NCBI GenBank assembly: GCA_020850355.1
Contig: JADZEX010000029.1
Coordinates: forward strand, 1 to 64,000
DNA: 64,000 bases
From: Fimbriimonadaceae bacterium
Lineage (GTDB): Bacteria; Armatimonadota; UBA10988
Reading direction: 5' to 3'
Under the pieces are notes generated by a model. The model was not told the origin of the DNA, ran no database searches, and saw only the letters and a program-made list of their open reading frames with translations. How positions within the stretch are numbered: position 1 is the first letter of the stretch; each line of letters starts with the position of its first letter. Made by a program: the position numbers and the translations under genes. Positions 2,830 to 62,563 of the stretch are shown here, piece after piece.

Positions 2830-3474
2830 ATGCAGACCCCGCGCCGCAAGGCGTTTACCCTCATCGAGCTGCTGGTGGTGATCGCGATCATCGCGATTCT
2901 GGCGGCCATCTTGTTCCCGGTCTTTGCGAAGGCCCGCGAGAAGGCCCGGCAGTCGAGCTGTGGCTCGAACCTGAAGCAGATCGGCACCGCGGCGATGCAG
3001 TACGTCCAGGACTACGACGAGACCTTCCCCTGGTACGTCAACGGCACCTCCTGGGCCGACCCTCTGTCGGCCGCCAACACCTACTGGGGCCGTTTCCTGG
3101 AGCCCTACTGCAAGAACCAGCAGATCTTCGGTTGCCCCAGCGCGATGGCCGCGCTGAAGACCGGCAACTACTCCTACGGCCTGAACGGCTTTGTCGATGG
3201 CGGCGGGGTTGGGACGGTCGCGCTGGCCAGCATCCAGGCGCCGGCCGAGAGGATCTACAGCCACGACTCCTACGAGTCGCGGATGGACGACAACGGCGAC
3301 ATGCTCTGCACCTCGGCCGGGTTCAGCGAGAACCTGAAGCAGGCCAACGACATCAACTACAAGAACGAGGCCTGGCGCCACAACGACGTCTGCAACGTCC
3401 TGTGGCTCGACGGCCATGTCAAGGCGCAGCCCAAGTCGCCGGACTACCCGCGCGCCTGGTACACCATCCCCTAA
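2830..3474 (+). CDS. Type IV prepilin / pseudopilin, H-X9-DG family (DUF1559 type)
   Basis: A 214-aa exported filament or pseudopilin-like protein. The short basic leader (MQTPRRKA) precedes a class III signal, with cleavage predicted between Ala8 and Phe9 and the conserved Glu at mature position 5 (FTLIE), followed by a hydrophobic helix and the [11 protein letters not shown] segment. The C-terminus carries [14 protein letters not shown], an H-X9-DG motif. I chose ATG 2830 because AAGGAG lies eight bases upstream; an upstream in-frame start would add 35 residues of non-conserved sequence before the leader. No other pilus gene is adjacent. Proteins of this kind occur in many copies in Planctomycetota and Armatimonadota, and most have no known job. 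Confidence 0.9.
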
Positions 3475-3496
3475 GCCGGTCCAACCGGTGGAACTG

Positions 3497-3531
3497 CCGA
3501 GCCGTCGCGCCTCAACCGCGCGACGGCTCGG
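3497..3531. terminator. Perfect 13-bp hairpin between convergent genes
   Basis: The 13-base arms 3497-3509 and 3519-3531 are perfectly complementary around a 9-base loop. The site lies between the prepilin stop (3474) and the dioxygenase stop, which sits in the loop (3512-3514). There is no strong T-tract, so this is a terminator-like or mRNA-stabilising hairpin that could serve both directions. Confidence 0.65.
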
Positions 3532-4354
3532 TCATCTGTTCGCGAGCCAGGCGACTCAGTTCGGCGAGGTGCCCGTCGTTGGCGGCCACCTGCTCCAAGT
3601 GTCGTCGCCGTTCCGGCCCGGCGGTGCGCAGCATGGTCTCGCCGTAGGCGCGGTCGATCCAGAACCGGGCGTGCCCGGACAGGTAGTCGCGCAGCGCTGG
3701 GAGGCGGTCGTTGGGGTAGCGCTGGCAGAGGTTGATGGTGAACATCCGCCGGCGCTGCCCGCCGCCGAAGGCCGCGTGCTTCAGGTTGTGGTTGAAGACC
3801 AGCAGGTCACCCGGCGTCGACTCCAGCGGCACCGCCGGCACCTCCGACCCGCGCAGCCCCCACTGCTCGCCGGCCTGGCCCAGCGCGTGCAGCTCGCTGC
3901 TGAACGGCCCGTCGACCTGGTGGCTGCCCGGGATCACCCGCAGGCAGCCGGTGGTGGCGGTGACCGGGTCGAGGTAGATGGCCATCTTGAGATGCCGCCC
4001 CTCGTGGTGCCAGCCGTCGCTGTGCCAGCCGGTGTCGCCGACATAGTAGTTGCCGTCGCTGCCCATGTAGTTGAAGTCGTCGCCCAGCAACGCGGCGCCG
4101 ATGCCGAGGATCGCCGGGTGGTCGAGCAGCGTGCAGAGGTACTCGCTCTGGTCGATGAACGGCACGATGCAGGAGCGGGCGGTGCCGTCGTGCGGGCGGC
4201 CATCGTGACCGCCGCCGCGGGCGGCCCAGACCGCCTCGAACTCGGCGGTAATCCGGGCGATGCAGTCGCTCAGGAGCCCGCGGCAGGCGAGGAACCCAAA
4301 GGTCTCGAAGTGCCGCACCTGCGGCGGCGTCAACGGCGTCCCAACGCTGGCCAT
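3512..4354 (-). CDS. Phytanoyl-CoA dioxygenase (PhyH) family protein
   Basis: A predicted Fe(II)/2-oxoglutarate-dependent oxygenase of 280 aa, cytoplasmic with no signal peptide. The iron ligands are probably His111 and Asp113 in WHSDGW and a distal His near residue 193 in NLKHAAFGG. An Arg on the following strand (QRRRMF) could bind 2-oxoglutarate. The start at 4354 has GGAG six bases upstream; the longer frame to 4573 runs into the divergent sulfatase and lacks conserved sequence. Substrate is unknown. PhyH-like genes are often found beside sulfatases in planctomycete-like and armatimonadote-like genomes, so a role in catabolism of sulfated or methylated compounds is possible but not shown. 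Confidence 0.85.
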   Translation of the reverse strand: MASVGTPLTPPQVRHFETFGFLACRGLLSDCIARITAEFEAVWAARGGGHDGRPHDGTARSCIVPFIDQSEYLCTLLDHPAILGIGAALLGDDFNYMGSDGNYYVGDTGWHSDGWHHEGRHLKMAIYLDPVTATTGCLRVIPGSHQVDGPFSSELHALGQAGEQWGLRGSEVPAVPLESTPGDLLVFNHNLKHAAFGGGQRRRMFTINLCQRYPNDRLPALRDYLSGHARFWIDRAYGETMLRTAGPERRRHLEQVAANDGHLAELSRLAREQMTEPSRG

Positions 4355-4478: not shown

Positions 4479-5807
4479 ATGGCCGAGGGCGCCCGCCCGA
4501 ACGTGATCTGGGTCTTCGGAGACCAGCACCGCGCGCAGAGCGTTGGATATGCTGGCGACCCGAACGTCTGCACCCCGCAGATCGACCGCCTGGCGATGGA
4601 GGGGCTGCGCCTGCAAGGAGTCGCCGGCTGCCCGCTGTGCTGCCCCTACCGCGGATCGCTGCTGAGCAGTCGCTACCCGCACCAGGCCGTGCCCGGGCAC
4701 GAGTACCGGCTGTCGCCCGAGCTGCCGACCGTGGCGCACGCCTTCCGCGAGCACGGCTACCACACCGGCTGGTTCGGCAAATGGCATGTCGATGGTCACC
4801 ACGAACGCGATGGGCGCGGCGCGCTGCACGCAGTCCCGCGCTCGCGGCGGGGCGGGTTTGACGAGTGGCTGGGCTACGAGAACAACAACAGCCAGTACGA
4901 CTGCTGGGTCCACGGCCACCGCGGCGCCGAGGAGGTGGCCCACGAGCGCCTGCCGGGGTACGAGACCGACGAGCTCACCAATCTGCTGCTGCGCTATCTG
5001 CGCGACCGCGCCGCGGACCGGCAGCCGTTCTTCGCTGGTCTGAGCGTGCAGCCGCCGCACGATCCCTACGTGGCGCCCGAGGCCTGGGCCACTCGCCACA
5101 CGCCAGGGCGGGTGGTGCTGCGGCCGAACGTCCCAGCGATCCCCCGGGTGGTCGACCAGGCGCGGCGCGAGCTGGCCGGCTACCATGCGATGATCGAGAA
5201 CCTCGACCACAACCTCGGGCGGGTCCGCAGCGCGCTCGCCGAACTGGGGCTGGCCGCGCAGACGCACCTCATCTTCTTCAGCGACCATGGCGACATGCAT
5301 GGCTCGCAGGGCCAGTTCCGGAAGACCTCGCCGTGGGAGGAGAGCATCCGCGTGCCGCTGGTGATCGGCGGCGTTGGCCTCTACGGACTCGGCCGCGGGG
5401 CGGCGCCGGCGCTGGTCAACCATGTCGACCTGGCGCCCACCAGCCTGGGGCTGTGCGGCCTGCCGGTACCCGCCTGGATGCAGGGCACCGACTACAGCCA
5501 CCGCCGACTACGGGGCAAGGCGCCGGTCGAGGAACCGGACTCGGCGTTCCTGCAACTGGTCGTGCCGACTGGCCACGGCCACAGCACCGACCGCCCGTGG
5601 CGCGGGCTGGTGACGCGGGCCGGCTGGAAGTACGTCTGCCTGGAACACCAGGCCTGGCTGCTGTTCAACCTCAACGAGGACCCCTACGAGCAGGCCAACC
5701 TGGCGCACAACACCGCCTTCGCCACGGAGCGGCGGCGGCTGCACGAACGGTTGCGCCAGTGGATCGCCGAGACCGGCGACGAGTTTGCCCTGCCGACCTT
5801 GGACTGA
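4479..5807 (+). CDS. Sulfatase (type I, formylglycine-dependent)
   Basis: A 442-aa arylsulfatase-family hydrolase. The N-terminal motif NVIWVFGDQH supplies the first metal-binding Asp. The formylglycine signature is C54-C55-P56-Y57-R58, so Cys54 is the predicted modified residue. SDHGDMHG (about residue 268 onward) supplies the second metal-binding pair. No signal peptide is seen, so it is probably cytoplasmic or exported by an unrecognised route. The start at 4479 has AGGAG eight bases upstream. It lies 30 bp before a second sulfatase on the same strand and diverges from the PhyH gene, so the three may be co-regulated. No formylglycine-generating enzyme gene is present in this window. Confidence 0.9.
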   Translation: MAEGARPNVIWVFGDQHRAQSVGYAGDPNVCTPQIDRLAMEGLRLQGVAGCPLCCPYRGSLLSSRYPHQAVPGHEYRLSPELPTVAHAFREHGYHTGWFGKWHVDGHHERDGRGALHAVPRSRRGGFDEWLGYENNNSQYDCWVHGHRGAEEVAHERLPGYETDELTNLLLRYLRDRAADRQPFFAGLSVQPPHDPYVAPEAWATRHTPGRVVLRPNVPAIPRVVDQARRELAGYHAMIENLDHNLGRVRSALAELGLAAQTHLIFFSDHGDMHGSQGQFRKTSPWEESIRVPLVIGGVGLYGLGRGAAPALVNHVDLAPTSLGLCGLPVPAWMQGTDYSHRRLRGKAPVEEPDSAFLQLVVPTGHGHSTDRPWRGLVTRAGWKYVCLEHQAWLLFNLNEDPYEQANLAHNTAFATERRRLHERLRQWIAETGDEFALPTLD

Positions 5808-5837
5808 CCCGCCCAACGCCCCGAGGGAGCCGCGACG

Positions 5838-7376
5838 ATGGCCGAGACGCGACCCAACATCCTGATCTTCATGACCGACCAGCAGCAGGGCGCCACGGCC
5901 CTGCCGCAGCACCCGTGTCGGCTACCCCACGTCGAACGGTTGGCGGCCGCTGGGGTCACCTTCACCGACACCTACTGCCCGTCGCCGCATTGCTGCCCAT
6001 CGCGGGCGACCTTCATGAGCGGGCTCTATCCGTCGCGTCACGGGATCGACAACAACGTCGCCACGGACACCGCCCTGGGCATCAACTTGCGCGACGGCGT
6101 GCGGCTCTTCAGCGAAGGTCTGGCGGCCAGCGGCTACCGCCTCGGCTACAGCGGCAAGTGGCATGTTTCGCGGGACATCATGCCCGCCGACCGCGGCTGG
6201 ACCGACTACGGCAGCGGCCCGCTGCGCGGGCAGTTCAGCACCTCCCGGCAGCCGGCCAACTGGGAGCGCGCCCACCGCGAGCTGACCGCGCCCGAGCCCC
6301 GCCAGCCGGGCTGGGTGCAGCGGCCGGGGTGGGGCAACATCCGGGTCTACGGCAGCGTGCCCGACGGTGGGCCGCGCGGCTATGAGGGCACGGCCGACCA
6401 CAGGGTGGTGACTCGCGCCATCGACGGCCTGCGGCAACTTGCGGCTGGTGAGGATCCGTGGTGCCTCTACGTCGGCACCGGCGGGCCGCACGATCCGTAC
6501 ATCGTCCCAGAGACCTTCGCCCGGATGTACGCCCCGGCCGACATCGCGCTGCCGCCCAGCTTCAGCGACGACCTGGCCGACAAGCCGCGGGTCTACCAGC
6601 GGATGCGGTACCAGTATTGGGGGCAGCTCACCGAGGACGAGGTGCGCGCGTCGCTGGCCCACTACTGGGGCTACTGCAGCATGATGGACGCGCTGTTTGG
6701 CCTGCTGCTGGAGGAACTGGAGCGGACCGGCCAGGCCGACCACACCGTCGTCCTGTTCTGCAGCGACCACGGCGACTAACTCGGCGCGCATGGCCTCTAC
6801 TGCAAGGGCGTCCCGGCCTTCCGCGAGGCCTACCACGTGCCGGCCGTGGTCCGCTGGCCCCGTGGCCTGGCGCAGCCGGGGCGCACCGTCGACGGCCTGG
6901 TCAGCCTGGCCGACTTCGCGCCAACCTTCCTGGAGCTGGCTGGCGCCGCCGGCGCGGAGCGCTGTGATGGTCGCAGCCTGCTTCCGTTCCTGCGCGGCGA
7001 GCAGCCGGCCGCTTGGCGCGACGCCGTCTTCACGCAGCTCAATGGCGTCGAGCTGTACTACACGCAGCGCAGCATCCTGACCAAAGATTGGCGCTACGTT
7101 TACAACGGCTTCGACTTCGACGAGCTGTACGACCGCCAGGCCGACCCGCACGAGTTGGTCAATCTGGCCTTCCCCGACATCCACGCCCTGCCGGCGCCGC
7201 ATCACAACCGCACCGCCGCCCCGTGGCCGCCGCTGACCGCCGACCTGGAAGCCGTCCGGACCGACCTGCTGCAGCGTCTCTGGCGCTTCGCGCACCAGCA
7301 CGACGACCACCTCTTCAACCCTTACTGGACGGTCGCTCTGGCGCCGTTGGGGCCGGGGAGTGTGCTGGGCGGGTAG
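5838..7376 (+). pseudogene. Second sulfatase, interrupted by an in-frame TAA at 6777
   Basis: A 513-codon sulfatase reading frame with a single in-frame stop. The first part (codons 1-313) starts MAETRPNILIFMTDQQ, carries the modification motif C52-C53-P54-S55-R56, and ends SDHGD. Codon 314 is TAA exactly where SDHGD-Y/M-LG is expected. The same frame continues with LGAHGLYCKGVPAFREAY and runs to TAG at 7376 with typical C-terminal sulfatase sequence (KDWRYVYNGFDFDELYD). A single change TAC to TAA explains it. Everything else, including frame and high GC3, is intact, so this is a very recent nonsense mutation or a sequencing error. The truncated 313-aa product would lack the C-terminal half of the metal site and the C-terminal subdomain. 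A GGGAG element precedes the start. Confidence 0.85.
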
Positions 7377-7735
7377 GGCGTGACCGGCCAGCCGACCCGC
7401 GCCGCTGCGTGGCGCGCCGACAAGCGGCCTGAGGCGCGGCCGCAACCTCTGAGGTCACCGTTACCACCCGCCGGGGCGTGGGGTAATCCCAGTCCAACTC
7501 CAGCGGCTCCCCCAGCACCATAGCCAGCCGCGTCAGGCCGGCCATCATCGGCGCCGGCTCCCCACTCTCCCAGCGCGCCACCGCCGGCCGCTGCCGGCCC
7601 AACACCGTGGCCAGCGCCCCCGGCGTCAGACCATGCGGCGCCCGGTACCCGCAACCACACCGCCAACGCCCTGCCGATCGCCGTCCGGGCCCACTCGCGC
7701 CGGGGCGCCGCGGCCGCCAGGTGGTCCGCCAACAC
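7315..7735 (-). pseudogene. XRE-type helix-turn-helix regulator, frameshifted
   Basis: Two minus-strand frames together make one XRE-like DNA-binding protein. From GTG 7735 the first frame reads ADHLAAAAPRREWARTAIG and continues to AVWLR. At a GGG near 7648-7650 the similarity jumps to the other frame, which reads PHGLTPGALATVLGRQRPAV, then ARWESGEPAP and LAMVLGEPLEL: helices 2-5 of the fold. Almost every codon on both sides of the jump ends in G or C, which is strong support for one formerly continuous gene with a one-base excess. The start has no clear ribosome binding site. The 3' end overlaps the sulfatase end. It may once have regulated the adjoining locus. Confidence 0.55.
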
Positions 7736-7877
7736 CGCCCGCTACGGCGCGCTGCCATGCACTGTTCGCTCTCCCAGCGGCTGAGACGCTGCGCTGCCGC
7801 GACCCAGGTGCGGCCTCCTGCCCATGCAGCGCGGCCCCACACATTGGCCCATGTTGCGACATCGTTGCGGAAGCGCC

Positions 7878-7906
7878 TTGACAACAGCCTGGCAGGGCGC
7901 TATATC
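7878..7906 (+). promoter_or_regulatory. Consensus-like sigma-70 promoter for the MauE-thioredoxin gene
   Basis: TTGACA (7878-7883) lies 17 bp before TATATC (7901-7906), which puts a start site near 7913 and leaves a leader of about 32 nt before ATG 7945. A perfect -35 with ideal spacing is notable in so GC-rich a region. Confidence 0.65.
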
Positions 7907-7944
7907 CCATTGTACAGCATTGATCCCGGGCTGCGAGGTGGGTG

Positions 7945-9087
7945 ATGGGTAAGCCGACTGGGACACTGACGGCTCTCCGACTCCTTGTCATGGTCGTGCT
8001 GGCGACCAGCGCCGTTGTGAAGCTCTGGTCCTTTGGCGAAGCCGCGGCCAAGTACGGCGTTGCACTAACCGCCATCGCAATCGCCTTCGAGGGAATCGTG
8101 GCGATCAGCCTCTGCCTTCGGCACCTGACACGTGCGGCCGGAGCTGGGGTGTTCCTGTTAGGCGTGGCCTTTCTCACCCAGACCGTGCCCCGCGCAGTAT
8201 CGGGTGCTGCCTCTGGGAGCTGCAGTTGCTTTGGTAGCCTATTGGCGATGTCAGCTCGACAGGCGGTCCTGCTTGATTGCATGCTAGTCATCTCTGGTGC
8301 GCTGCTGTACCGGTCAGACCACTTCCGCCAGTCCGACGGTCGCTTGCAGGCTCAGCCGCTCAGCTCGCTGCAGCCAGCGACCATCACCAGGGCAGTAGGT
8401 TGGAGCCTGGCTTGGCTGGCGCTGATGGCCTGTCTGTACCGTATCGGTCTGGCGTCCGACCAGCACCAAGGTCGCGGCCCGCAGCCGAGCCCGGCCCTGG
8501 CGGCGGAGGTGGGAGCAGGTCTGCCCGAGGTCACGGTCCGGACGACCGACGGCGCTGTTCGTTCGCTGCATCCAAGTGACGGTCGTTGGTGGCTGCTCCT
8601 GCTGCTCACTCGGCGCTGCCGGGCGTGCACCAGACTGGCTCAAGATGTCGCTGCTGTGGTCGAGCGCTGGCCGCCCTGGCTGGCGGTCGCAGTGGTGGCG
8701 CGGGAGAGCCCGGAGCGTTGGGTACAGCAGATCGGCCCGAGAATCGACGTGTTCACCGACCCGGCTGGCGTGGCCTGGCGCCTGGTGGCTGGAGAGACAG
8801 CCGCCGCACCGGCCTATGTGCTGGTCTCGCCGGACGGGGTGGTCCGCCATGCAGGCTCCAAGTACCTTCCAGGACGCAATGGCCTCGTCGCCGATTTGGA
8901 GGCGTGGCTGGCGGACGCGCCGAGCGGTGCGGCGGCTGGGCCGCTGCCGCCGTTGTGGATCGGTCGGCTGGCCGTCGATTGCCCCGTCTTCGCCGACCGA
9001 CCGGACCGACTCCTCGCTCCCGACCAGACCGCACCTGTGATCCTGTGCTGGGCAACCCTGGTTGCCAGCCCGCCGCCTGGGCCATAG
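7945..9087 (+). CDS. MauE-like membrane domain fused to thioredoxin-like domain
   Basis: A 380-aa membrane protein. Residues 1-160 form about four transmembrane segments like the MauE/DoxX family, including the C93-S94-C95-F96-G97 signature typical of MauE. A further transmembrane segment near residue 155-170 leads to a C-terminal thioredoxin-like domain with a C225-R-A-C228 redox motif and later VLVSPDGVVRHAG as in TlpA-like proteins. MauE is known from methylamine dehydrogenase maturation, where it supports disulfide formation. A fusion with thioredoxin suggests electron transfer across the membrane to make or repair disulfides. ATG 7945 follows GAGG by six bases; GTG 7942 is an alternative start. 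A strong promoter precedes it, and the next gene (57 bp on) is a cysteine-containing prepilin fusion, a possible client. Confidence 0.8.
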   Translation: MGKPTGTLTALRLLVMVVLATSAVVKLWSFGEAAAKYGVALTAIAIAFEGIVAISLCLRHLTRAAGAGVFLLGVAFLTQTVPRAVSGAASGSCSCFGSLLAMSARQAVLLDCMLVISGALLYRSDHFRQSDGRLQAQPLSSLQPATITRAVGWSLAWLALMACLYRIGLASDQHQGRGPQPSPALAAEVGAGLPEVTVRTTDGAVRSLHPSDGRWWLLLLLTRRCRACTRLAQDVAAVVERWPPWLAVAVVARESPERWVQQIGPRIDVFTDPAGVAWRLVAGETAAAPAYVLVSPDGVVRHAGSKYLPGRNGLVADLEAWLADAPSGAAAGPLPPLWIGRLAVDCPVFADRPDRLLAPDQTAPVILCWATLVASPPPGP

Positions 9088-52961: not shown

Positions 52962-54323
52962 TCAGTTGGTCTCGTCGGCCGCCGGCGCTGGGGGTGGCGC
53001 CGGTTCGGCGGGCGGCTCCGGGGCGGGCTCGGGCGCTGCCGGCGGCGCCTCGCGCGGTCGCCTGGTCGCGTCACGGGCCTCCGGCGGGGTGGGCCGCAGC
53101 GGCGCGGGCGAGGGCGTCGGGGCTGTCACATGGTCTTCGTCGAAGGCGGTCTCGTCCTCGCGGTCGGGCGGGTCGGCCGCGTGCGGCGGCACTGCCGGGC
53201 GGGTCGCCGGCGCCTCGTCTTGCTGTTGCTCCAGCGCGCGCAGCCGGCTCGGTTGCGGGTCGGGTAGCACCACCCCGGTGCGCCCTACGGATCCGGCGCT
53301 GCCGCCGCGCAGGCGAGTTGCGTCGAAGGTGTGGGCGTACATCCGGCTCAGCAACGTCACCGCCTCTTCGGGCCGCACGTGCATGAAGTGGCCGCGCCAG
53401 TCGCAAGGCAGCGTGGCGGTGTCCATCAGGGCCGGGTTGATCTTCGAGATGAACAGCGCCAGGCTGAGCAGTTGCTTGTCCGAGAGGTCGGTCTCGATGT
53501 ACTTGCGGGCGGCGGCCAGGAGGCTCCGCACCTGCGGCAGGTGTTGTGGCGAGAGGGCCTTGCGGGCCAGGATCTTGATCACCTTCTGCTGCCGCTCGAC
53601 CCGCCCAAGGTCGCCCCGTGGATCGCTGTCGCCGTTCTTCGATTTGCGCCACCGCACGTAGCCGTGGGCCTGCTCGCCGGTGAGGTGCTGGTAGCCCTTC
53701 CTGAGGTGGACGTGGAAGTCCTGCCAGCTATCGTCGTAGTTCATGTCGCGTTCGACATCGACGTCGATCCCGCCCAGCAGGTCGACCAGCTCGACGAAGC
53801 CGCGGAAGTTGGTTTTGAGGTAGTGGTCGGCCTGCAGCCCAAAGTTGCTGCGGACGGTGTCCATCAGCAGCGCCGGGCCACCGAGGCGGTGGGCGGCGTT
53901 GAGCTTGTGGATGCCCTCGCCGGGCACCTCGACGCGGGTGTCACGCGGCAGGCTGAGAATGTGGACATTGCCGCTGAGGCGGTCCAGACCGATCAGGATG
54001 TTGGTGTCGCTGCGGCTGAACTCCTTGACGATCTGGCGGCGGTCGGTGAGCGTGACGTCTTCGCCGATCAGCAGGATGTTGACCCGCGCGCGGCCCTGGA
54101 AGACGAGTTCGGGGGGGACCACTTCGGAGACCAGGAAGCGGCCGACCTTCTCGGTGGTCGAGCCGTGTTCGTGGCGTGATGCGTAGAGTGCGTAGCCCAG
54201 CACGGCGCTGGCGGCCAGCACGAAGGTGGTCAGGCCGGTCAGCAGAATCCGGAAGACCCGTCGTCCGGTCGAGCGTCGCGGAGGCTGCGGGCGGGACGCA
54301 GCGGAGCGTGGCGAACCTGCCAA
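52962..54323 (-). CDS. LytR-CpsA-Psr (LCP) family glycopolymer transferase
   Basis: A 453-aa membrane protein with a cytoplasmic basic N-terminus, one transmembrane helix (about 24-46, ILLTGLTTFVLAASAVLGYA) and an LCP catalytic domain (RSDTNILIGLDR, LSLPRDTRVEVPG, HKLNAAHRLGG, and YVRWRKSKNGDSDPRGD with the Arg residues that bind pyrophosphate). A long Pro/Ala/Glu-rich tail (about 340-453) follows. LCP proteins attach undecaprenyl-linked glycopolymers to the wall. The TTG start has GGGAG six bases upstream; other starts would cut into the N-terminus. Confidence 0.9.
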   Translation of the reverse strand: MAGSPRSAASRPQPPRRSTGRRVFRILLTGLTTFVLAASAVLGYALYASRHEHGSTTEKVGRFLVSEVVPPELVFQGRARVNILLIGEDVTLTDRRQIVKEFSRSDTNILIGLDRLSGNVHILSLPRDTRVEVPGEGIHKLNAAHRLGGPALLMDTVRSNFGLQADHYLKTNFRGFVELVDLLGGIDVDVERDMNYDDSWQDFHVHLRKGYQHLTGEQAHGYVRWRKSKNGDSDPRGDLGRVERQQKVIKILARKALSPQHLPQVRSLLAAARKYIETDLSDKQLLSLALFISKINPALMDTATLPCDWRGHFMHVRPEEAVTLLSRMYAHTFDATRLRGGSAGSVGRTGVVLPDPQPSRLRALEQQQDEAPATRPAVPPHAADPPDREDETAFDEDHVTAPTPSPAPLRPTPPEARDATRRPREAPPAAPEPAPEPPAEPAPPPAPAADETN

Positions 54324-54364: not shown

Positions 54365-54394
54365 ATTCTAAGGCCGGCCGGCCGGCCGTGTCAA
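54365..54394 (-). promoter_or_regulatory. Promoter for the LCP gene, with (GGCC)4 spacer
   Basis: On the minus strand TTGACA (54394-54389) lies 18 bp before TAGAAT (54370-54365). The spacer holds a perfect 16-base self-complementary run (54372-54387). The -35 overlaps the stop codon of the upstream GrpE-like gene (54391-54393). Confidence 0.65.
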
Positions 54395-55002
54395 TCGGCG
54401 ACGGCCAGCTCGGCGCAGAAGCGATAGAGCTGCGCTCGGGCTGGGACCACCAGTTCGCCGTGCAGCCAGTAACCGCCGTTGCCCGGCCGCACCGCCGCCA
54501 CCCGGCCGTCGAGGTGCGCCTGCGTGGTTGGCGCGGCGGGTTCGTCGCTCGGCAGGACCTCCCGTCCGGTGGGGGTGCCGGGCGAGACCTGCATCCGCTG
54601 CACGCCGCGCCGCCGCAGCTCCTGGTCGGCCCGCTGGCGCAACCGCTCCAGCAGCGCGGTCAGCTCGGCGGCCAGCAGCGCGACCCGCGGGTCCGCGGCG
54701 ACGGCGCCGTCGAGGGCCTCCAGCAGGGTCTCCTGCGGCTCGGTCCGGAGATAGTAATCGAGCTCCTGACGCTGTTCGCTGAGGAAACTGCGGACCTCGG
54801 GATCGGGCAGTTCGTGCAGCAACTGCGGCCAGCGGACGTAGACTTCGTTGAGGTGGTTGACGACGCGGAAGAAGGTCTGGACCTCTGGGGCGAGGCCGGC
54901 CGCACCGGACAGGGGGGCCGCTTGCGCCAGCAGCGCCGCGGCGCGGTGGGCGCGTTGGCCGCGCTCATCGGTCGGTCGGGGCGCTCTCTCCGCGATAGAC
55001 AT
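54391..55002 (-). CDS. GrpE-like protein, soluble form
   Basis: A 203-aa protein. The first 140 residues are helical (RAAALLAQAAPLSG onward, with LLAAELTALLERLRQRADQE); the last 60 form a GrpE-type beta domain: RRRGVQRMQVSPGTPTGREV, then LDGRVAAVRPGNGGYWLHGE and LVVPARAQLYRF. GrpE shows the same G-x-V...V-x-x-x-x-x-G-Y-x-L-x-G-x-x-x-x-P/A-A pattern. The start is ATG 55002, which overlaps the upstream gene by 38 bases; the longer frame to 55176 is not supported. GrpE proteins release ADP from Hsp70 partners. The natural partner here is the Hsp70-like protein at 55673. Confidence 0.7.
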   Translation of the reverse strand: MSIAERAPRPTDERGQRAHRAAALLAQAAPLSGAAGLAPEVQTFFRVVNHLNEVYVRWPQLLHELPDPEVRSFLSEQRQELDYYLRTEPQETLLEALDGAVAADPRVALLAAELTALLERLRQRADQELRRRGVQRMQVSPGTPTGREVLPSDEPAAPTTQAHLDGRVAAVRPGNGGYWLHGELVVPARAQLYRFCAELAVAD

Positions 55003-55669
55003 AGCGTTGTGCTCGCGTGGGGCAGACCACCTGCCCCGCCAGTTCCCAGCCACCGCGACCCGGCGCCACCGCGGCCACCCGGCCATCCAGCTCCGGCCGG
55101 TCGGTCCAGCGCGGCGGCTGGTCCGGGTCCGGAACCACTCGCAACGGCTCGAAGGGGCTCCCCGAGCTGGTCGCAATCCGCCGCAGCCCGTGCGCCGCGA
55201 GGCGCTCGATGGCCGCGCTCTGCGCCGTCGCCAGCGCCTCCGTCAGCCGTTCGGCCTGCTCCGCCGGCAGGCCCGCCGCCAGCAGCTCGGACGCTTCCCA
55301 GCGCCGGTACAGCGCAGCATCCAACTCGCCGGCCCGCAGGGCCACCGCCCCGGCGGGATCGGCTCCCGTCAGGGCTTCTACCATCTGAATCGGCAGTTCG
55401 GCCGCCAGGTTTACCTGTTGGTTGAACTGAACGACCAGCGGGTCGCGCAGCGCGGCGGTGGCGCCGGCCGGAACAGGCGACACGGGCGCCGGCGGCGGGG
55501 CGGTTTGGGGTGGGGCCGGCGGCGCAGTGGTGGCTTCCGGCGGGCTGGGCAGCGCCGCTGGCGGCGGCGGGAGCTGCTCACCGAGTTGCCGCAGTTGCTG
55601 GCGCAGCGCCAGCAGCAGACCCAGCACGACAAGCTGCAGCGCCAGCAGCAGACCCAGCAGTGGCAGCAT
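54965..55669 (-). CDS. GrpE-like protein with N-terminal membrane anchor
   Basis: A 234-aa protein with an N-terminal hydrophobic helix (LPLLGLLLALQLVVLGLLLA), a Pro/Ala-rich linker (about 33-72), a helical middle and a C-terminal GrpE-type domain: AAIERLAAHGLRRIATSSGS, PFEPLRVVPD, LDGRVAAVAPGRGGWELAGQ and VVCPTRAQRYVY. The last part is nearly the same as that of the next protein, so the two are paralogues. The anchor would hold nucleotide exchange, and hence the Hsp70 partner, at the membrane. ATG 55669 follows AGGAG by six bases, four bases after the Hsp70-like stop. Confidence 0.7.
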   Translation of the reverse strand: MLPLLGLLLALQLVVLGLLLALRQQLRQLGEQLPPPPAALPSPPEATTAPPAPPQTAPPPAPVSPVPAGATAALRDPLVVQFNQQVNLAAELPIQMVEALTGADPAGAVALRAGELDAALYRRWEASELLAAGLPAEQAERLTEALATAQSAAIERLAAHGLRRIATSSGSPFEPLRVVPDPDQPPRWTDRPELDGRVAAVAPGRGGWELAGQVVCPTRAQRYVYRGESAPTDR

Positions 55670-55672
55670 CGC

Positions 55673-58300
55673 TCACTCCTCGAAGCGCGGCAGCTCGACG
55701 CGCCACGGCTCGCCGAGGGCGGGGTCGCCGGGCAGCAGCCAGTGCCCGCTCAGCTCCAGGCGAGTCGGCCCGCGGCGGTAGCCCAGGGCGACCTGCAGGC
55801 GCAGGGCCGGCTGGGCCGGCAGCCCGGCGGTCGCCAGCACCGCCTGACCTTCGTACCAGGCCAGGCCCTGTTGGCGCAGCACCTGGTCGCCAAGCTTCAG
55901 CCGCAGCAGCAGCCGCTGGCCGGGTTGCAGCGGCAAGGTCGCCACCAGGCTGGTCTCCTGGCGGTCCCCGGGCGGCGCGCCCGCGCTGAGCTGCCGCTGG
56001 TCCAGCAGGCGTGGCGGTGCGCCTGGCGTCCAGTCGCAGACCTCCAGGGTCGCCGCGGCGGGCAAGCGGTCGGTGATCCGGAATAGCGTCCGCTGCGCCG
56101 CGCCGCGGGCGACATGCAACCGCCGCAGGCCGGCGTCGGCTTCCAGGACCGCGGCGAAGCTGAGCGGTGGGCGCTGCACGGCTTCGCGCCAGCCGCGCAC
56201 CAGGGTGGTGCCGCCGACCGGCACGACCCACTGCGGCCGCCGCAGCCCGAGCCGCTGACAGAGCGCCGGGAAGCCCTGCTGCAGGGGCGCCTCGCCGCTG
56301 CGCATGGCCAGGAACTCCAGCGCCACGCGGCTGCCCAGATCGCGCAGCTCCAGGTCGGCCCACGGTCCGCTGCTGCCGCGCTTCGGCGGGCCGAGCGCCA
56401 ACAGCGGCGTCTCGCTGCTGAGCCGCGCCTCGGGCGGCGAGTCGTAGCGCAGGTGACGCTCCTTGAAGCGCGAGACGGCGCCGAGCAGCTCGGAGCGGGT
56501 CACCGCCTGGGTCGCGCCGCTGAACGCAAAGGCCGGCTGCGAGCGCATGAAGGCGAACCAGTCGATGCTCTCGCCGGCGCTCGGCGGCCGCGGCGGGTTG
56601 GCCGCCCGCAAGGGCCGCAGCGGCGCCGGGCCGGCGGCCGGGATGTTGGCCGGGTCGCGCGGGCTGCACCAGAAGCCGAGCAGCCAGTCGAAGAGCCAGG
56701 AATCGAGCTGGTCGCCGCCCCACTCGTAGCCCAGCGCCTCGATCTGCGCGAAGCCCCACTGGCCGTCCTGCGCCGCGATCTGCAACAGGCTCAGGTCAGT
56801 CGTCCCGGCGCCGCTGTCGAAGACGCAGAGCCAGTCGCCCGGTTGCAGACCGGCACTCTCGGGCAGCAGCCGCACGACATCGACCGCGGCGCAGACGGGC
56901 TCTTTCTCAAACGAGATCTGGTCGTCGGTCAGCCCGAACAGCGCGCCCCCCGCCAGCGCTGCGGTGCGGGTCGCGGCTGCTTGCTGCGCTGCCGTGGCCG
57001 CGTCGGCCAGGACCGGCACGCTGAGCACCAACTGCGCCTCGCGCAGCCGCACCGCGGTGCGTTGTTCGAGTTGCTCGAAAAGGTGGCGGAAGAAGTCGGC
57101 CGCGACCTGGGCGACGCTGGGCTGGCCGGCCGGCGGCGGCGCGGCGTCGCCGCGCAGGAACATCTTCATGCCGACGAACAGCACGCCGTGCTCGTTGGCG
57201 TAGCGGCCGTCGAGGTCCAGCCGGACACCCACATCGGTGACCGCTGCGGCGCTCTGCGCGAAGGCCCAGTCGCCGAAGCTGGGTTGTCCGCCGGGCAGCG
57301 CGTAGTGCACCGCCGAGGGCAGCCAGCGCGAGTCGGCGGCGGGATCCAGGCGCTCCCAGGTGAGCACCTGCGGCAGCGGTGGCAGGGCCAACTGGTCGAC
57401 ATAGGCGACGGCCGTCTTGGAGGTCCCGAAGTCGATCCCCACGGTCCAGCGCTGGCTCGGCACCGGCGGCGGCGCCGGCACCACCCGTTCCAGCGTCACG
57501 CTGGCTGGCGGCAACCCCGGAATCCGCACGTCGAGCCGGCCACTGCCGCTCGCGGCGCCCTCGGGAGCGCGCACCCGCAGCACCGTGGCGCTCGGCTGCG
57601 GCCGCCCGTCGAGACTGCTGCCGGGCCGGAGCAGGAGCCGCCCGCTGCCGCTGAAGCCGGACCCCACCTCGGCGCAGACCAGGTAGCCGCCGCTGCAGGT
57701 GACCTCGCCACAGAGCGCCGCGCCGCCGTGGTTAAGGACCTGGACATACCCCTCCGGGCCGCCCAGACCAAAGAACAGGTGCTCGCGGTCGAGGGAAATC
57801 GGCCCGCTGCTGACCGCCCGGACGGTGGTGCTGAGGGGCTGGCTGACCCACAATGTCTCGACCGCCTGCCGCCGAGTCGCGCCGAGCGTGGCGGGAGGGG
57901 CAGTCAGCGTGTGGACCAGCACCGTGACCTGCCCGTCGCCCTGAGCCGCGGCGGCCGCCACCCGCAGGCCGATCTCCCGGCGCTGACCCGGCTCGACGCG
58001 GCCATGCAGACTGGGTAGCGAGCGCGGCCGCAGGTGGGCGCTGGGGTCCAGCGAGTAGTAGAGCGTCCCGTCGCCGTCGTTGCGGACGGTCACCTGCAGC
58101 TCGCCGTCGTCGTCGTCGCCGTGGAGCTCGACCAGCGGCGGCCAGATGGCCAGCTCGGCGCGGGCGGTCGGCCAGCCGCAGGCCGGGCAGAAGGCCTGCG
58201 GCAGCAGATGCAGCGCGCCGTCTGGCGCGTAGAGACTCTGCTCTGGCGCCAGCGCCGCGAGGTCATGCCCGCAATGGGCGCAGGACGAGGCCAAGGCCAC
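55673..58300 (-). CDS. Hsp70-family ATPase with N-terminal zinc ribbon
   Basis: An 875-aa Hsp70 relative. Residues 1-45 form a zinc ribbon (C7-x-x-C10 and C38-x-x-C41). About 240 residues of beta-sandwich-like sequence follow. The actin-like ATPase begins at VGIDFGTSKTAV (about 287), with phosphate-2 motif FDSGAGTTDLSLL near 494 and the adenosine motif VPVGGTTLVRGW near 692. The usual DxGGGTxD is DSGAGTTD. A C-terminal beta-rich part of about 140 residues (RTLFRITDRLPAAATLEV onward) lies where the substrate-binding domain is, with no helical lid. GTG 58300 has GGAG three bases upstream. It is the core of the operon of 54391-61680. Confidence 0.85.
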   Translation of the reverse strand: MALASSCAHCGHDLAALAPEQSLYAPDGALHLLPQAFCPACGWPTARAELAIWPPLVELHGDDDDGELQVTVRNDGDGTLYYSLDPSAHLRPRSLPSLHGRVEPGQRREIGLRVAAAAAQGDGQVTVLVHTLTAPPATLGATRRQAVETLWVSQPLSTTVRAVSSGPISLDREHLFFGLGGPEGYVQVLNHGGAALCGEVTCSGGYLVCAEVGSGFSGSGRLLLRPGSSLDGRPQPSATVLRVRAPEGAASGSGRLDVRIPGLPPASVTLERVVPAPPPVPSQRWTVGIDFGTSKTAVAYVDQLALPPLPQVLTWERLDPAADSRWLPSAVHYALPGGQPSFGDWAFAQSAAAVTDVGVRLDLDGRYANEHGVLFVGMKMFLRGDAAPPPAGQPSVAQVAADFFRHLFEQLEQRTAVRLREAQLVLSVPVLADAATAAQQAAATRTAALAGGALFGLTDDQISFEKEPVCAAVDVVRLLPESAGLQPGDWLCVFDSGAGTTDLSLLQIAAQDGQWGFAQIEALGYEWGGDQLDSWLFDWLLGFWCSPRDPANIPAAGPAPLRPLRAANPPRPPSAGESIDWFAFMRSQPAFAFSGATQAVTRSELLGAVSRFKERHLRYDSPPEARLSSETPLLALGPPKRGSSGPWADLELRDLGSRVALEFLAMRSGEAPLQQGFPALCQRLGLRRPQWVVPVGGTTLVRGWREAVQRPPLSFAAVLEADAGLRRLHVARGAAQRTLFRITDRLPAAATLEVCDWTPGAPPRLLDQRQLSAGAPPGDRQETSLVATLPLQPGQRLLLRLKLGDQVLRQQGLAWYEGQAVLATAGLPAQPALRLQVALGYRRGPTRLELSGHWLLPGDPALGEPWRVELPRFEE

Positions 58301-58314
58301 ACACTCCGGGCGGC

Positions 58315-59202
58315 CTATTCGTCAGCGCCGCGGCCACTCCTTGGCGCGCCGCTGAGCACCCCGGGCGGCACCGCGGCGAGCGCCGTCGGATCGGTCGCGG
58401 CGCGCTCCACGAGGCCCCAGCCGGCGGTCTCGCAACGCCACCAGGCGACCGCGTCGGGCTCGCCGCCACTCTGCCGCAGCGGCGCCACCACCCGATCACT
58501 GAGGGTGGCGCGCTGCGCCAGCCGGAAGCAGGCCTGGGCGGTCGCGGCGGCGGCCGGGTCGGCCGCGCGGGAGGTCGCCAGGTAGCCCACCCAGGTGGCC
58601 TGGCACCAGGGATGCCGGCCGACCAGCGCGGCCGCCGCGGCCGGGGTGCCCTGGCACAAGGTGACCCAGGCCGCGGCCACCGTGGTCTGAGCCAGCAGCC
58701 ACCAGCGCAGGCCGCAGCCGCTGACACCATGGCGACCGATGATGGCCGCCAGCAGCCGGGTGACATCGGCTTCGGCCGGACCGTAGCGCCGGACGCGATG
58801 CAGCGCGGTCAGGATCTGCTCGTACAGCGGGCGCTCCGGCAGCGCGGCGGGCAGCCAGTCGGGCCGCAGCGCGGCGACGGCGCGCAACGGGTCGGCGGCC
58901 GCTGCGTCGAGCGGGCGGGCCGGGTGGCGCAACAGCCAGCCAAGGGTGTCGCTCAATCGCAGCCGGGCCGCCAGCGCGCAGGCATCGACCAGGGCCCTGG
59001 TGAACCGCTCCGCGACCGGCCGCGGCTGGTCGTCCCAGGTCGCCCAGCCAAGGCTCCAGGCGACGGCCGCCACCTCGCGCAGGCGCTGGTCGGGCAGGCC
59101 CCAGGGGTCGGCCAGCTCGTCGAGCACTCCCAGCAGGCGCGGCCAGGCGGCGCCTGCCGGATCGCTCAACCCGACTCGGACCAGTTGCCAGGCGCGCGGC
59201 AT
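58315..59202 (-). CDS. Helical protein of unknown function in the Hsp70 operon
   Basis: A 295-aa Trp- and Ala-rich protein, mainly helical (LREVAAVAWSLGWATWD, RYGPAEADVTRLLAAIIG, CGLRWWLLAQTTVAAAW). It has no signal peptide and no motif I recognise. ATG 59202 overlaps the preceding stop by one base (TGATG), so it is coupled to the coiled-coil membrane protein. A possible adaptor of the complex; this is inference from position. Confidence 0.65.
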   Translation of the reverse strand: MPRAWQLVRVGLSDPAGAAWPRLLGVLDELADPWGLPDQRLREVAAVAWSLGWATWDDQPRPVAERFTRALVDACALAARLRLSDTLGWLLRHPARPLDAAAADPLRAVAALRPDWLPAALPERPLYEQILTALHRVRRYGPAEADVTRLLAAIIGRHGVSGCGLRWWLLAQTTVAAAWVTLCQGTPAAAAALVGRHPWCQATWVGYLATSRAADPAAAATAQACFRLAQRATLSDRVVAPLRQSGGEPDAVAWWRCETAGWGLVERAATDPTALAAVPPGVLSGAPRSGRGADE

Positions 59203-60689
59203 CAGCCCCGCCCGAACCAGCGCCGCGCACCGCCGTGCTGGGAGTCCTGGTCGGCGGGCGCGCGCAAGGCCTCCCGCAGCAGGCGCAGCTCCTCGGCCAG
59301 GGCCCCGAAGCCGCTGCCGGCGGCCGTCGAGCGTTGCATCGCCCCAACCGCTTCACCCAACTGCGCCACGGTCTGCTGCAGGCCGGCCAGGTGCTGCCCC
59401 AGTTTCTCGATCTCTCCGCCGGCCAGCGGGGCCACGGCGTGCTGCACGCGCTGGTCGATCGCCAGCGTGAGTTGCGCCAGCTTGTTGGACGACTCGCGGA
59501 TCCCCGCCTGGAAGCCCCCCAGGCTGGTGGTCACCGCCTGGCTCATCGCCGTCGCCGCTTCGGCGGTGCGGCGGGCCGAGTCGGCGACCGCGGCGAAGTC
59601 GGGTGGCGACTGTTCCAGCCCGTCGAGCAGGGCCTCAACCGCCTGGCGGCTGAACTCCTGGGTCGAGGCCAGGCCGCTGCGAACCAGGTCGCCCCAGGTC
59701 CCGACGGCCTGTTCGAGCCGGCCGGCCGCGCCGTTGAGGCGCTGGTAGACCGCCTCGAGGTTGGTGGCGATGCTGTCCTGATTGGCGTGCAGTTGCACCA
59801 GCAGATGGTCGAGGTTGCCCGCAGTTTCCTGCAGCGCGCCGCCGGTCCGGCCGAGCGCCTCCAGCAGCGGGCGCTGGTCGGCCTGCCAGGCGGCGGTCAG
59901 CTCGGCCAGCCGCTGGCCGTGACTGGCGGTCTGCTCGTGCGCGGTGGTCAGCGCGGCGCTGCCGGCACTCAACGCCGTGGCGGCCGTCTCCAACGGCGCG
60001 AGCGCGCCAGCGAGGCGGTCCAACCCGCTCTCGACACTGCTGAAGGCGCCCAGGATGCGGTCGGCGGCGTCGTCGAGGCGGGCCGCGGCATCGCTGACCT
60101 CCGCCGCCCGGCTGCCCAACTCCCCGGCCGCCAGGGCCATCTGGGCCGCCCCGTCGGAGAGCTTTGCCTCAAAGGTGCTGGCGGCGTGGGCCAGGCGGTC
60201 GGCCATCACGGTGGGGTCAAGCCGGCCGACGGTCTGGCCGAGCTGGTTGACCGCCTCGCGGAACGGCGTGACCGCCTCTTCGACGTACTTGCCTGCCATC
60301 GCCAGAGCGCGGGCGGAGTCGTGCAGTCCCGCTTGCGCCCGCCGCTCGGCCGCCGCCAGGGCCGGCAGGCTGCGCGCCTGGACCCAACTGCGCAAGACCA
60401 GGGCGGTCGCCAACGGCAGCAAGGCGGCACGCCCGGCCGCCAGCAGCGCGGTCGTCGGGTTGGTGCCCGCGGCGCCGGCCGAGGCCAGCGCCAGCAGCAG
60501 GCCGGCAGCCAGCCAGGCCGGGGTCAGCAGCCACGGCTCGCAGGCCCGCAGGCGGTCGGTCAGGCCGGGCGCCTGGCTGGCCTCGGCGGTCGCCAGACGG
60601 CGTAGCAGGCGCGCTGCCAGCACCGCCGGCAGCCCGGCCGCCAGGCTGCCTAGACCGGCCACCAGCCACCACTGCGCGGGAAAGCCCAT
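59202..60689 (-). CDS. Membrane protein with very long helical (coiled-coil) tail
   Basis: A 495-aa protein. Three transmembrane segments (about 7-29, 52-73, 80-101) are followed by about 360 residues of heptad-rich helix (e.g. AGLHDSARALAMAGKYVEEA and ALGRTGGALQETAGNLDHLL), like methyl-accepting or ZorA-type tails but without their known motifs. The tail presumably projects into the cytoplasm. It lies seven bases downstream of the pseudo-protease gene and overlaps the next gene. A scaffold or sensor role at the membrane is likely but unproven. Confidence 0.7.
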   Translation of the reverse strand: MGFPAQWWLVAGLGSLAAGLPAVLAARLLRRLATAEASQAPGLTDRLRACEPWLLTPAWLAAGLLLALASAGAAGTNPTTALLAAGRAALLPLATALVLRSWVQARSLPALAAAERRAQAGLHDSARALAMAGKYVEEAVTPFREAVNQLGQTVGRLDPTVMADRLAHAASTFEAKLSDGAAQMALAAGELGSRAAEVSDAAARLDDAADRILGAFSSVESGLDRLAGALAPLETAATALSAGSAALTTAHEQTASHGQRLAELTAAWQADQRPLLEALGRTGGALQETAGNLDHLLVQLHANQDSIATNLEAVYQRLNGAAGRLEQAVGTWGDLVRSGLASTQEFSRQAVEALLDGLEQSPPDFAAVADSARRTAEAATAMSQAVTTSLGGFQAGIRESSNKLAQLTLAIDQRVQHAVAPLAGGEIEKLGQHLAGLQQTVAQLGEAVGAMQRSTAAGSGFGALAEELRLLREALRAPADQDSQHGGARRWFGRG

Positions 60690-60696
60690 CAGCGGC

Positions 60697-61431
60697 TCAC
60701 TGCCCGCCGCTCGCGGCGCCCGGCAACGGCATCAGGGCCGTCGTCGACTGGTTCCACATCGCCACCACCTGGCCGCCGCTGGCCGTCACCGGCCCGCCAT
60801 CGAAGCCGCGCGGCGGCTGCGGTTCAAGCGTCACGAGGCCACCTGGCCCTGCCTTCACCACGGCCTCGCGGCTGAGCAGGCCCAGCGAGCCGCTGTCCGG
60901 GTCGTAGCCGTGGACGGTCACCGCGGCCCCGGCTGCTGGCAGGGCGCTGGCCGCTGGCAGCGGACGCAACTCGGCGCCTGCGTCGCGCGGCCGCAGGCGG
61001 GCCCAGTCCTGACTCAGCCGTCGCGGCACGGCGTCCTGTGGGCTGAAGGTGCCCCGCGCGCTGACCTGCATCGTCAGCTCGCGCGGCTGCGGGCGGTCGG
61101 TCTCGACGAACACGGTGACCTTCGCGGGCGGGTCGGCGACGCCGCGGGGGAAGGCCGTGCCGAGCGTCGTGAGGACCTCGCCGGGGGCGCAGACCCAGCC
61201 CGAGCCGGTGCTGATCTGGCGGTCGTCGAACTGCACCACGACATATGCCACCGACCCGCCGAGCGAGCCGCCGCCGGTGCCCACCGTGCGGGCCAGCAGC
61301 CAGCCGCTGAGCCCCATCACGAGCACCACCAGCAGCGTGGCGAGCAGCCAGTTCGGGCGGCGCGCTTCGACCGGCCGGGCGATCGGCCGGGTGCCGAGGA
61401 CATTGTTCTGGTCGCTGTAGTATTGGGGCAC
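60697..61431 (-). CDS. Membrane-anchored HtrA/trypsin-fold protein, catalytic residues lost
   Basis: A 244-aa protein with one N-terminal transmembrane helix (about 28-47) and a single trypsin-like domain. STGSGWVCAPGEVLTTLGTA aligns with the GSGF-V-I...ILTNxHVV of DegP-type proteases but the His position is Gly91. DWARL (Asp142) aligns with the D-x-A-x-L Asp. GFDGGPV aligns with GNSGGP but has Asp211 for the Ser nucleophile. So two of three catalytic residues are missing and activity is unlikely. No PDZ domain is present. GTG 61431 follows GGAGG by five bases and overlaps the end of the TerB-like gene's flank. Confidence 0.75.
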   Translation of the reverse strand: MPQYYSDQNNVLGTRPIARPVEARRPNWLLATLLVVLVMGLSGWLLARTVGTGGGSLGGSVAYVVVQFDDRQISTGSGWVCAPGEVLTTLGTAFPRGVADPPAKVTVFVETDRPQPRELTMQVSARGTFSPQDAVPRRLSQDWARLRPRDAGAELRPLPAASALPAAGAAVTVHGYDPDSGSLGLLSREAVVKAGPGGLVTLEPQPPRGFDGGPVTASGGQVVAMWNQSTTALMPLPGAASGGQ

Positions 61432-61440
61432 CGGTGCCTC

Positions 61441-61680
61441 CTACAGTTGATGCCGTTGCCGGGCGACCTGGATCCGTTGCCAGCAGGCCGGCTCGACAGC
61501 CTGTTCCTCGATGGCATCAAAGACTCGCCGCAGCACATCGCGTTCCTGGTTGTCGAGCTGCTGGTCCTGCAGCGCGACGCCCAGCAGCAGTTCCAGCTCG
61601 GCCAGTTGCAGCGCCCCGACGTCGTCAAACAGGCCGGCGGCAAGCGTGGCCAACTCCTGCCAACTGGATCGGCTTTCCAA
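61441..61680 (-). CDS. Small TerB-like helical protein, first gene of Hsp70 operon
   Basis: A 79-aa helical protein with LELLLGVALQDQQLDNQERD, similar to one half of TerB/DjlA-type domains (ALADGELDxxEREVL). The start is TTG 61680, since AGGAG lies seven bases before it and the N-terminal extension in this frame is not conserved-looking. Another frame here (to 61688) is a shadow. In DjlA-type proteins, TerB domains are joined to a J domain; here no J domain is seen, so this may be a distant regulator or linker. Confidence 0.55.
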   Translation of the reverse strand: MESRSSWQELATLAAGLFDDVGALQLAELELLLGVALQDQQLDNQERDVLRRVFDAIEEQAVEPACWQRIQVARQRHQL

Positions 61681-62055: not shown

Positions 62056-62292
62056 ATGAGTGAAGTCCTGGTCCTGCTGATCATCTTCGGTTCGATCACC
62101 GTCTGGAAGTGGATGTCGCTGCAGACCGAGGGTGGCTCGAAGCAACGGGTGAAGCAGCTCGAAGGTCGGGTCGCCGCGCTGGAAGCCGAACTCGGCGAGC
62201 TGCGAACGCTGGTCCACGACGCCGTGATCGAGGTCTCCGACCGCGAGCGGCTGGGGGCCAGCGACACTGGCCGGCGGAGCCTGGACGCTTAG
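62056..62292 (+). CDS. PspB-like small membrane coiled-coil protein, copy 1
   Basis: A 78-aa protein. It has one transmembrane helix (VLVLLIIFGSITVWKWM) and a coiled coil (VKQLEGRVAALEAELGELRT) ending with VHDAVIEVSDRERL. The layout resembles phage-shock protein PspB, with a helix plus a leucine-zipper-like tail. GAGG precedes ATG 62056 by seven bases. It and the next gene are paralogues. Confidence 0.6.
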   Translation: MSEVLVLLIIFGSITVWKWMSLQTEGGSKQRVKQLEGRVAALEAELGELRTLVHDAVIEVSDRERLGASDTGRRSLDA

Positions 62293-62302
62293 GAGGGCCG
62301 GC

Positions 62303-62563
62303 ATGATGTCGATCGGCTTCCTGCTGGTGGTGCTCTGTCTGGTTGCGCTGGTAGTGTTCTTCGGCTTCGTCACGCTGTGGGCCTGGATGGACATGAAGGC
62401 CAAGACCGCGGAGCGGCTGGAGTCCAGCTCGGCCGACCGCCTGCGGCAGCTCGAGCGCGACGTCGCCGAGTTGAAGCAGATGGTCTACGACGCCGTGATC
62501 GAGAAGTCCGACCAGGAGCGGCTGGCCACGCCGGTCCTGCCGGGTCAGCAGATCAACGCCTGA
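62303..62563 (+). CDS. PspB-like small membrane coiled-coil protein, copy 2
   Basis: An 86-aa protein with one transmembrane helix (LVVLCLVALVVFFGFVTLW) and a coiled coil (RLRQLERDVAELKQMVYDAV). Its YDAVIEKSDQERL matches HDAVIEVSDRERL of the copy before it. The start ATG 62303 (another ATG follows it) is six bases after GGAGG-type signal. It overlaps the methyltransferase gene (TGATG). Confidence 0.6.
   Translation: MMSIGFLLVVLCLVALVVFFGFVTLWAWMDMKAKTAERLESSSADRLRQLERDVAELKQMVYDAVIEKSDQERLATPVLPGQQINA

Follow-up and report, generated by a model that had tools for sequence, protein, structure and literature searches.

The stretch of DNA analysed here, referred to below as the window, comprises the first 64 000 nucleotides of contig JADZEX010000029.1 (C30 in our numbering) of a Fimbriimonadaceae bacterium from the phylum Armatimonadota. 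Positions 54391–61680 of its minus strand carry seven tightly packed open reading frames (ORFs), all of them present as described in an initial annotation of the window, with successive gaps of 9, 7, −1, 14, 3 and −38 bp (Table 1). They encode a TerB-like protein, a trypsin-fold membrane protein, a membrane protein with a long helical tail, a helical protein, a zinc-ribbon Hsp70-like ATPase and two GrpE-like proteins. In our view (probability about 60%), this operon is one of two halves into which a second copy of a conserved envelope machine, here called the FtsZl1-vWA-Hsp70-ZorAB system, has been split. The earlier description has to be corrected in this respect: the genetic unit reaches beyond the operon, to two other contigs of the same genome (C57 and C38).

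Components of the window operon

The zinc ribbon of the Hsp70-like protein is recognizable in its sequence (CAHC...CPAC). Its sequence matches are to HscA and DnaK (Table 1), and its score against the Pfam HSP70 family (PF00012; E = 0.2) is below the cut-off. Residues D290, G292, T293, K379, E467, P468, D495, G497, G499, T500 and D502 are invariant in an alignment of 19 homologues, and the ATPase motifs of the superfamily (the phosphate loops, the catalytic lysine, the Glu-Pro pair and the adenosine GG) were all found, together with its fold. The AF2 model (pLDDT 69.6; our predicted structures were built from 12- and 7-sequence alignments of the window and related loci) shows the N-terminal zinc ribbon, two β-sandwiches, the Hsp70 ATPase domain and a C-terminal domain resembling the β part of the substrate-binding domain (SBD-β). 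A Foldseek search with this model placed DnaK structures on top, with E-values down to 4e-18, including a DnaK without SBD-α (PDB entry 5obu; E = 1e-17). The model itself has no SBD-α lid, and its architecture thus differs from that of canonical DnaK (SBD-β plus α lid). The assignment to the Hsp70 superfamily, with catalytic residues intact, holds as a prediction from sequence and model, and the zinc-ribbon Hsp70-like ATPase of the initial annotation stands.

Neither of the GrpE-like proteins has a Pfam match. The AF2 model of the first (234 aa, pLDDT 75) consists of a transmembrane (TM) helix at residues 3–31, further helices and a β head, and a Foldseek search of the PDB with this model returned GrpE or GrpEL1 as its top eight matches (best E = 3.9e-4), with no other match at E < 1. 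Aligned with canonical GrpE using hhalign, the same protein reaches a probability of 86.6%, the alignment being confined to its C-terminal head (some 80 residues). The relatives occupying the same slot at other loci match the GrpE profile at 97.4%, and one of them scores E = 1.4e-5 against Pfam GrpE, just under the cut-off. The helices and C-terminal β head that define the GrpE fold are thus present, and the GrpE calls, including the membrane anchor of one of the two proteins, stand at the fold level; the exchange-factor role is a prediction. For the smaller protein the best start is the ATG at 55002, which corrects the earlier reading.

The arrangement recalls DnaK- or HscA-type Hsp70s with GrpE in its ATPase fold, catalytic residues, SBD-β-like domain and the GrpE-type β head of the partners. 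Unlike those proteins, the window Hsp70 adds the zinc ribbon and the two β-sandwiches and does without the α lid; unlike the DnaK/GrpE system, one GrpE-like protein is membrane-anchored, and there is no J-protein gene within the operon. The absence of a J-protein and the membrane association of several parts had both been noted initially, and both were upheld. We rejected an ordinary DnaK operon on account of the missing J-protein, the Pfam score of the Hsp70 and the presence of the genome's own DnaK and GrpE elsewhere. The sole J-protein candidate seen near a related cassette is a J-domain-like protein (YEILGVQPNDDADTLRSAYRR) encoded at 2461–3618 on the minus strand of locus L033, opposite a full Hsp70-FtsZl1-ZorAB cassette.

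The trypsin-fold protein was described as dead, and indeed the His and Ser positions of its His-Asp-Ser triad are replaced in our alignment with relatives (A7), as they are in its C57 counterpart. Among the trypsin-like proteins in the same slot elsewhere, the triad is intact in loci L017, L027 and L030 and in the first copy of L029, and partly lost in L031, L032 and the second copy of L029; the protease has therefore decayed more than once. The next gene encodes the membrane protein with a helical tail, and its tail is matched by PADLOC ZorA1, as detailed in Table 1. An hhalign comparison of its TM region with the profile of the ZorA motor gave no match (probability 0.2%), and ZorB is absent from the operon, which consequently shows no MotA/ExbB-like ZorA motor with a ZorB; a search of the genome for a second true ZorB returned the C57 copy only. 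A weak match on contig C79 (E = 0.007) was not counted, as it is a partial alignment to the OmpA domain. The window copy is therefore either motor-less or borrows the C57 motor. The helical protein gave no match in Pfam, NCBIfam or PADLOC searches. As for the TerB-like protein encoded by the first gene of the operon, its Pfam match is partial and below the cut-off, and a phmmer search against the related loci found no counterpart of it.

Table 1. Genes of the window operon
Product	Position	Strand	Evidence
Small TerB-like protein of 79 aa, encoded first in the operon	61441..61680	-	Pfam TerB E 8e-4, a partial match under the cut-off; NCBIfam DjlA E 0.007
Trypsin-fold protein, membrane-anchored, predicted catalytically dead	60697..61431	-	Pfam Trypsin_2 E 6.5e-7; one TM segment
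ZorA-slot membrane protein, helical tail of ~360 residues	59202..60689	-	Three TM segments; PADLOC ZorA1 E 5e-6, tail only
Helical protein, no family assigned	58315..59202	-	Slot match at C57, shuffle z 9
Zinc-ribbon Hsp70-like ATPase	55673..58300	-	NCBIfam HscA E 6e-7; DnaK E 9e-4 (phmmer against PDB) and by structure; paralogue at C57
GrpE-like protein 1, membrane-anchored	54965..55669	-	AF2 model, Foldseek, hhalign to GrpE
GrpE-like protein 2, soluble, smaller	54391..55002	-	phmmer E 9e-13 to GrpE-like 1; z 11-12 versus C57 GrpE-likes

A complete cassette and a separate trio in the same genome

The window Hsp70 has one full-length paralogue in its genome, 37–39% identical, on contig C57. 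There it belongs to a run of ten genes, encoding in order a β-propeller-like protein, a vWA protein with TM segments, FtsZl1 (Tubulin_2, PF13809; E = 3e-34), a trypsin-like TM protein, ZorA, ZorB, a helical protein, Hsp70 and two GrpE-like proteins. The ZorB is an OmpA-domain protein (OmpA E = 7e-12) identified as ZorB1 by PADLOC (E = 3e-24), and the vWA protein combines the metal-ion-dependent adhesion site (MIDAS) DISGS with a sub-threshold VWA_2 match. The window genes are collinear with the right half of this run, minus ZorB. Comparison of the two loci slot by slot gave shuffle z-scores of 18 for the trypsin-like protein, 10 for the ZorA slot and 11–23 for the GrpE-like proteins, compared with about 0 for off-diagonal pairs.

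The genome contains one other Tubulin_2 gene, on contig C38, preceded by propeller-like and vWA genes and with no chaperone gene beside the trio. The FtsZl1 copies of C57 and C38 are 41% identical, a divergence comparable to that of the Hsp70 pair. With full support, the members of each pair come out as sisters or as a clade, and the two trees share their main clades and are broadly congruent, the Hsp70 tree being a quick tree only. The GTP loop GGGTGS is intact in both FtsZl1 copies, and both vWA copies have the MIDAS pattern DxSxS. The second copy of the system thus appears to be split, with propeller-vWA-FtsZl1 at C38 and trypsin-ZorA slot-helical-Hsp70-GrpE-GrpE in the window, and we infer that the two halves may work together. 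A contig break was rejected as the cause of the split: each of the two lies in the interior of its contig, and their flanks are unrelated.

Several observations weigh against this reconstruction. The only links between C30 and C38 are their complementarity and matched divergence, and the similarity of the ZorA and helical slots (z of about 10) is possibly inflated by coiled-coil periodicity. No motor could be detected in the ZorA-like protein of the window, and the genome's sole ZorB lies at C57. A clear MIDAS pattern is wanting in two FtsZl1–vWA relatives from full systems. Finally, the action of Hsp70 on FtsZl1 in the mechanism proposed below is inferred only.

Such losses might also be expected if the operon were left over from a duplicated cassette, in decay and with no present function, having shed its protease triad, ZorA motor and ZorB and become separated from its left half. 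We regard this as improbable: all seven frames are open and tightly spaced, the catalytic residues of the Hsp70 are intact despite the low identity within the pair, and dead trypsin-like proteins occur in complete cassettes too.

The surroundings of the operon were also inspected. A gene downstream on the minus strand, set off from the operon by a GC-rich palindromic gap, encodes a LytR-CpsA-Psr cell-wall protein (52962–54323; E = 3e-42), whose linkage to the operon is not conserved in the related loci that we looked at. Divergently from the operon, two adjoining genes on the plus strand (62056–62563) encode small, mutually similar membrane proteins, each with a short coiled coil; the second weakly matches PspB (phage shock protein B; E = 0.013).

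Association with FtsZl1 and ZorAB across two phyla

The initial annotation proposed conserved synteny as a check, and homologues of the window genes do co-occur in other genomes. We searched 291 Armatimonadota and 118 Cloacimonadota genomes, all draft or metagenome-assembled; a scan of the contigs with the single window Hsp70 sequence gave no match and an alignment-based search was needed. Gene calls in the relatives are mechanical, and the β-propeller and vWA labels come from weak matches (PQQ_2, E = 6e-6 in one relative; VWA_2, sub-threshold) together with the MIDAS motif. The zinc-ribbon Hsp70 was found in at least 27 of the 291 Armatimonadota genomes (a lower bound, the three best candidates per genome having been scored). 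Tubulin_2, present in 84 of the 291 overall, accompanies it in 24 of these 27, compared with 60 of the 264 genomes without this Hsp70 (p = 1e-11). In 15 Armatimonadota genomes no more than 9 kb of a shared contig separates the two genes, and many of the others are on short contigs. Two gene orders recur in this phylum: propeller-vWA-TM-FtsZl1-trypsin-Hsp70-GrpE-GrpE and Hsp70-helical-propeller-vWA-FtsZl1-ZorA-ZorB. In Cloacimonadota this Hsp70 occurs in 4 of 118 genomes, and Tubulin_2 adjoins it in all four cases; three of the loci read Zn ribbon-vWA-small TM-FtsZl1-Hsp70-...-ZorA-ZorB, and the fourth, on an 8-kb contig, reads small TM-FtsZl1-Hsp70 up to the contig end.

Full cassettes also contain the ZorA/ZorB pair, as seen with ZorB1 at C57, with ZorA/ZorB in L036, L037 and L042, and with MotA_ExbB plus OmpA in L068. 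The TM aspartate of ZorB is conserved in ten out of ten sequences, and nearly all of nine ZorA sequences have a GLLGTVxGL-type motif.

It had been suggested that the operon specifies a membrane-linked chaperone machine. The chaperone and membrane parts are there, and the proposal misses the usual neighbours of this Hsp70, namely Tubulin_2/FtsZl1, vWA, the zinc-ribbon β-propeller-like protein and the ZorA/ZorB motor. Taken as a stand-alone device for envelope protein quality control, such a machine would have Hsp70 and GrpE acting on misfolded membrane or exported proteins, with the dead protease binding substrates and no part for FtsZl1. That FtsZl1, vWA and ZorB are not adjacent to the window operon would fit, and a membrane-anchored GrpE-like protein and a dead protease-fold protein are compatible with substrate binding. 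We nevertheless consider it unlikely because of the FtsZl1 association, this type of Hsp70 nearly always occurring with Tubulin_2; the missing α lid and the separate DnaK and GrpE of the genome also speak against it.

No Tubulin_2 neighbour was detected by profile at the Hsp70 loci of Planctomycetota, Myxococcaceae, Selenomonadaceae, Lachnospiraceae and δ-proteobacteria (L059, L063, L066, L067, L069 and L070), which were left out of the counts; three of these, from Lachnospiraceae and Selenomonadaceae (L069, L067 and L063), contain runs of two to four distinct Hsp70-like genes (706 to 921 aa, and shorter). Three tandem, near-identical genes for 124-aa pilin-like proteins adjoin the zinc-ribbon Hsp70 gene in L043 (13457–15244, plus strand). 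One locus of the same phylum as the window (L099, in G019:C75) has a different arrangement, with two Hsp70s, two GrpEs (one with a TM segment), a TPR protein, vWA and Tubulin_2 in a single run, and loci such as this suggest a continuum of FtsZl1–Hsp70 systems.

Relation to known systems and proposed function

Clusters of FtsZl1/Tubulin_2 with vWA and OmpA have been predicted to form a membrane-remodelling system (Makarova and Koonin 2010, PMC2875224). The gene union described here resembles it in grouping a Tubulin_2 protein with a C-terminal extension (PF13809), a vWA membrane protein and an OmpA-domain protein. Linked vWA and OmpA-domain genes do accompany FtsZl1 at C57, and FtsZl1 is also found in the C38 trio, with none in the window operon itself. 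The partners named in 2010 were GTPases and kinases, with no mention of Hsp70, GrpE, MotA/ZorA or trypsin-like proteins, whereas the zinc-ribbon Hsp70, the GrpE-like proteins and ZorA are regular partners here. A second comparison is with the GAP1-N2/DO-GTPase predicted conflict systems (Kaur et al. 2020, PMC7159879), in which tubulin, vWA, HSP70 and GrpE (with a second HSP70) are likewise linked components near membranes. In that study the tubulin and HSP70-GrpE themes are described as non-overlapping, each of them being built on DO-GTPase and GAP1; here tubulin, Hsp70 and GrpE occur together, and the operon contains neither GAP1 nor DO-GTPase. The genome has a single GAP1-N2, at 207.6 kb on C38 and beside none of the three loci. 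It belongs to what is, by its sequence, a GTPase-centric predicted conflict system (L107, G000:C38:200000-219000), in which a P-loop GTPase and GAP1-N2 (4734–8801) sit beside a zinc-ribbon TM gene, some 180 kb away from the trio on that contig. Finally, full cassettes share with Zorya (PMC11890865) a ZorA with MotA/ExbB-like TM segments and a long cytoplasmic helical tail, and a ZorB that combines a channel aspartate with a peptidoglycan-binding domain of the OmpA type; in Zorya ZorB, D24, the equivalent of the conserved TM aspartate, is essential (PMC11890865). Unlike in Zorya, FtsZl1, vWA and Hsp70/GrpE occupy the place of ZorC, ZorD and ZorE, none of which was named by PADLOC or Pfam among the cassette proteins scanned, no genome-wide search having been made.

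The gene union extends the 2010 FtsZl1 family and, in the cassettes scanned, fails to show the defining features of the GAP1-N2 and Zorya systems. The initial statement that no named system has this make-up takes no account of the core partners, and pieces of the set are published (PMC2875224, PMC7159879); beyond these, we found no report uniting tubulin, Hsp70/GrpE, vWA and ZorAB in the open-licence PMC literature.

In the FtsZl1-vWA-Hsp70-ZorAB system as we picture it, the state of the envelope would be sensed in full systems by the membrane vWA protein together with the ZorAB-type ion motor, which its OmpA-like domain would anchor to peptidoglycan, and the signal would be relayed via the long ZorA tail. 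The GrpE-like factors would recharge the zinc-ribbon, lid-less Hsp70 at the membrane, and Hsp70, instead of serving as a general folding chaperone, would use ATP to switch the assembly of the FtsZl1 polymer. Assembly of the FtsZl1 GTPase would then be the output, a localized reaction of the membrane when the envelope is attacked or damaged. Most likely, the window copy would keep the chaperone, exchange-factor and scaffold part, with the FtsZl1 and vWA of C38 as its partners and with either no motor or that of C57. Tentatively, and at somewhat below even odds, we further propose that this is an undescribed class of envelope machine, in which an ion-driven rotary motor of the ZorAB type would form one complex with a tubulin-like GTPase, a membrane vWA protein and a zinc-ribbon Hsp70 that lacks the lid and has a membrane GrpE of its own. 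The Hsp70 cycle would then be coupled to both motor and cytoskeletal polymer, and the window copy would be a motor-free split derivative of this machine.

As to its purpose, we favour a role in responding to attack on, or damage to, the envelope. Anti-phage defence or another form of conflict, in the sense of Zorya or of the GTPase-centric systems, would leave the anatomy of this machine unchanged: the motor or vWA would sense infection, and FtsZl1/Hsp70 would block it. The ZorB-like protein of C57, the patchy distribution among Armatimonadota and the occurrence of both tubulin and HSP70-GrpE in published predicted conflict systems (PMC7159879) make it a serious option. On balance we think it the less probable one, as no nuclease, helicase or other effector was seen in the cassettes examined, none of the cassette proteins scanned matched ZorC, ZorD or ZorE, and GAP1 and DO-GTPase are not in the cassettes.

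What FtsZl1/Tubulin_2 does in bacteria and archaea has been a question since 2010. This protein now has a concrete, recurring set of partners in two phyla, among them a defined ATPase with its predicted exchange factors as well as a motor of the ZorAB type, which makes the question accessible to pull-down and reconstitution experiments. If the FtsZl1-vWA-Hsp70-ZorAB system is as proposed, an Hsp70/GrpE pair would be dedicated to a single envelope machine rather than to general folding, and the ZorAB motor would operate beyond the canonical Zorya gene set.

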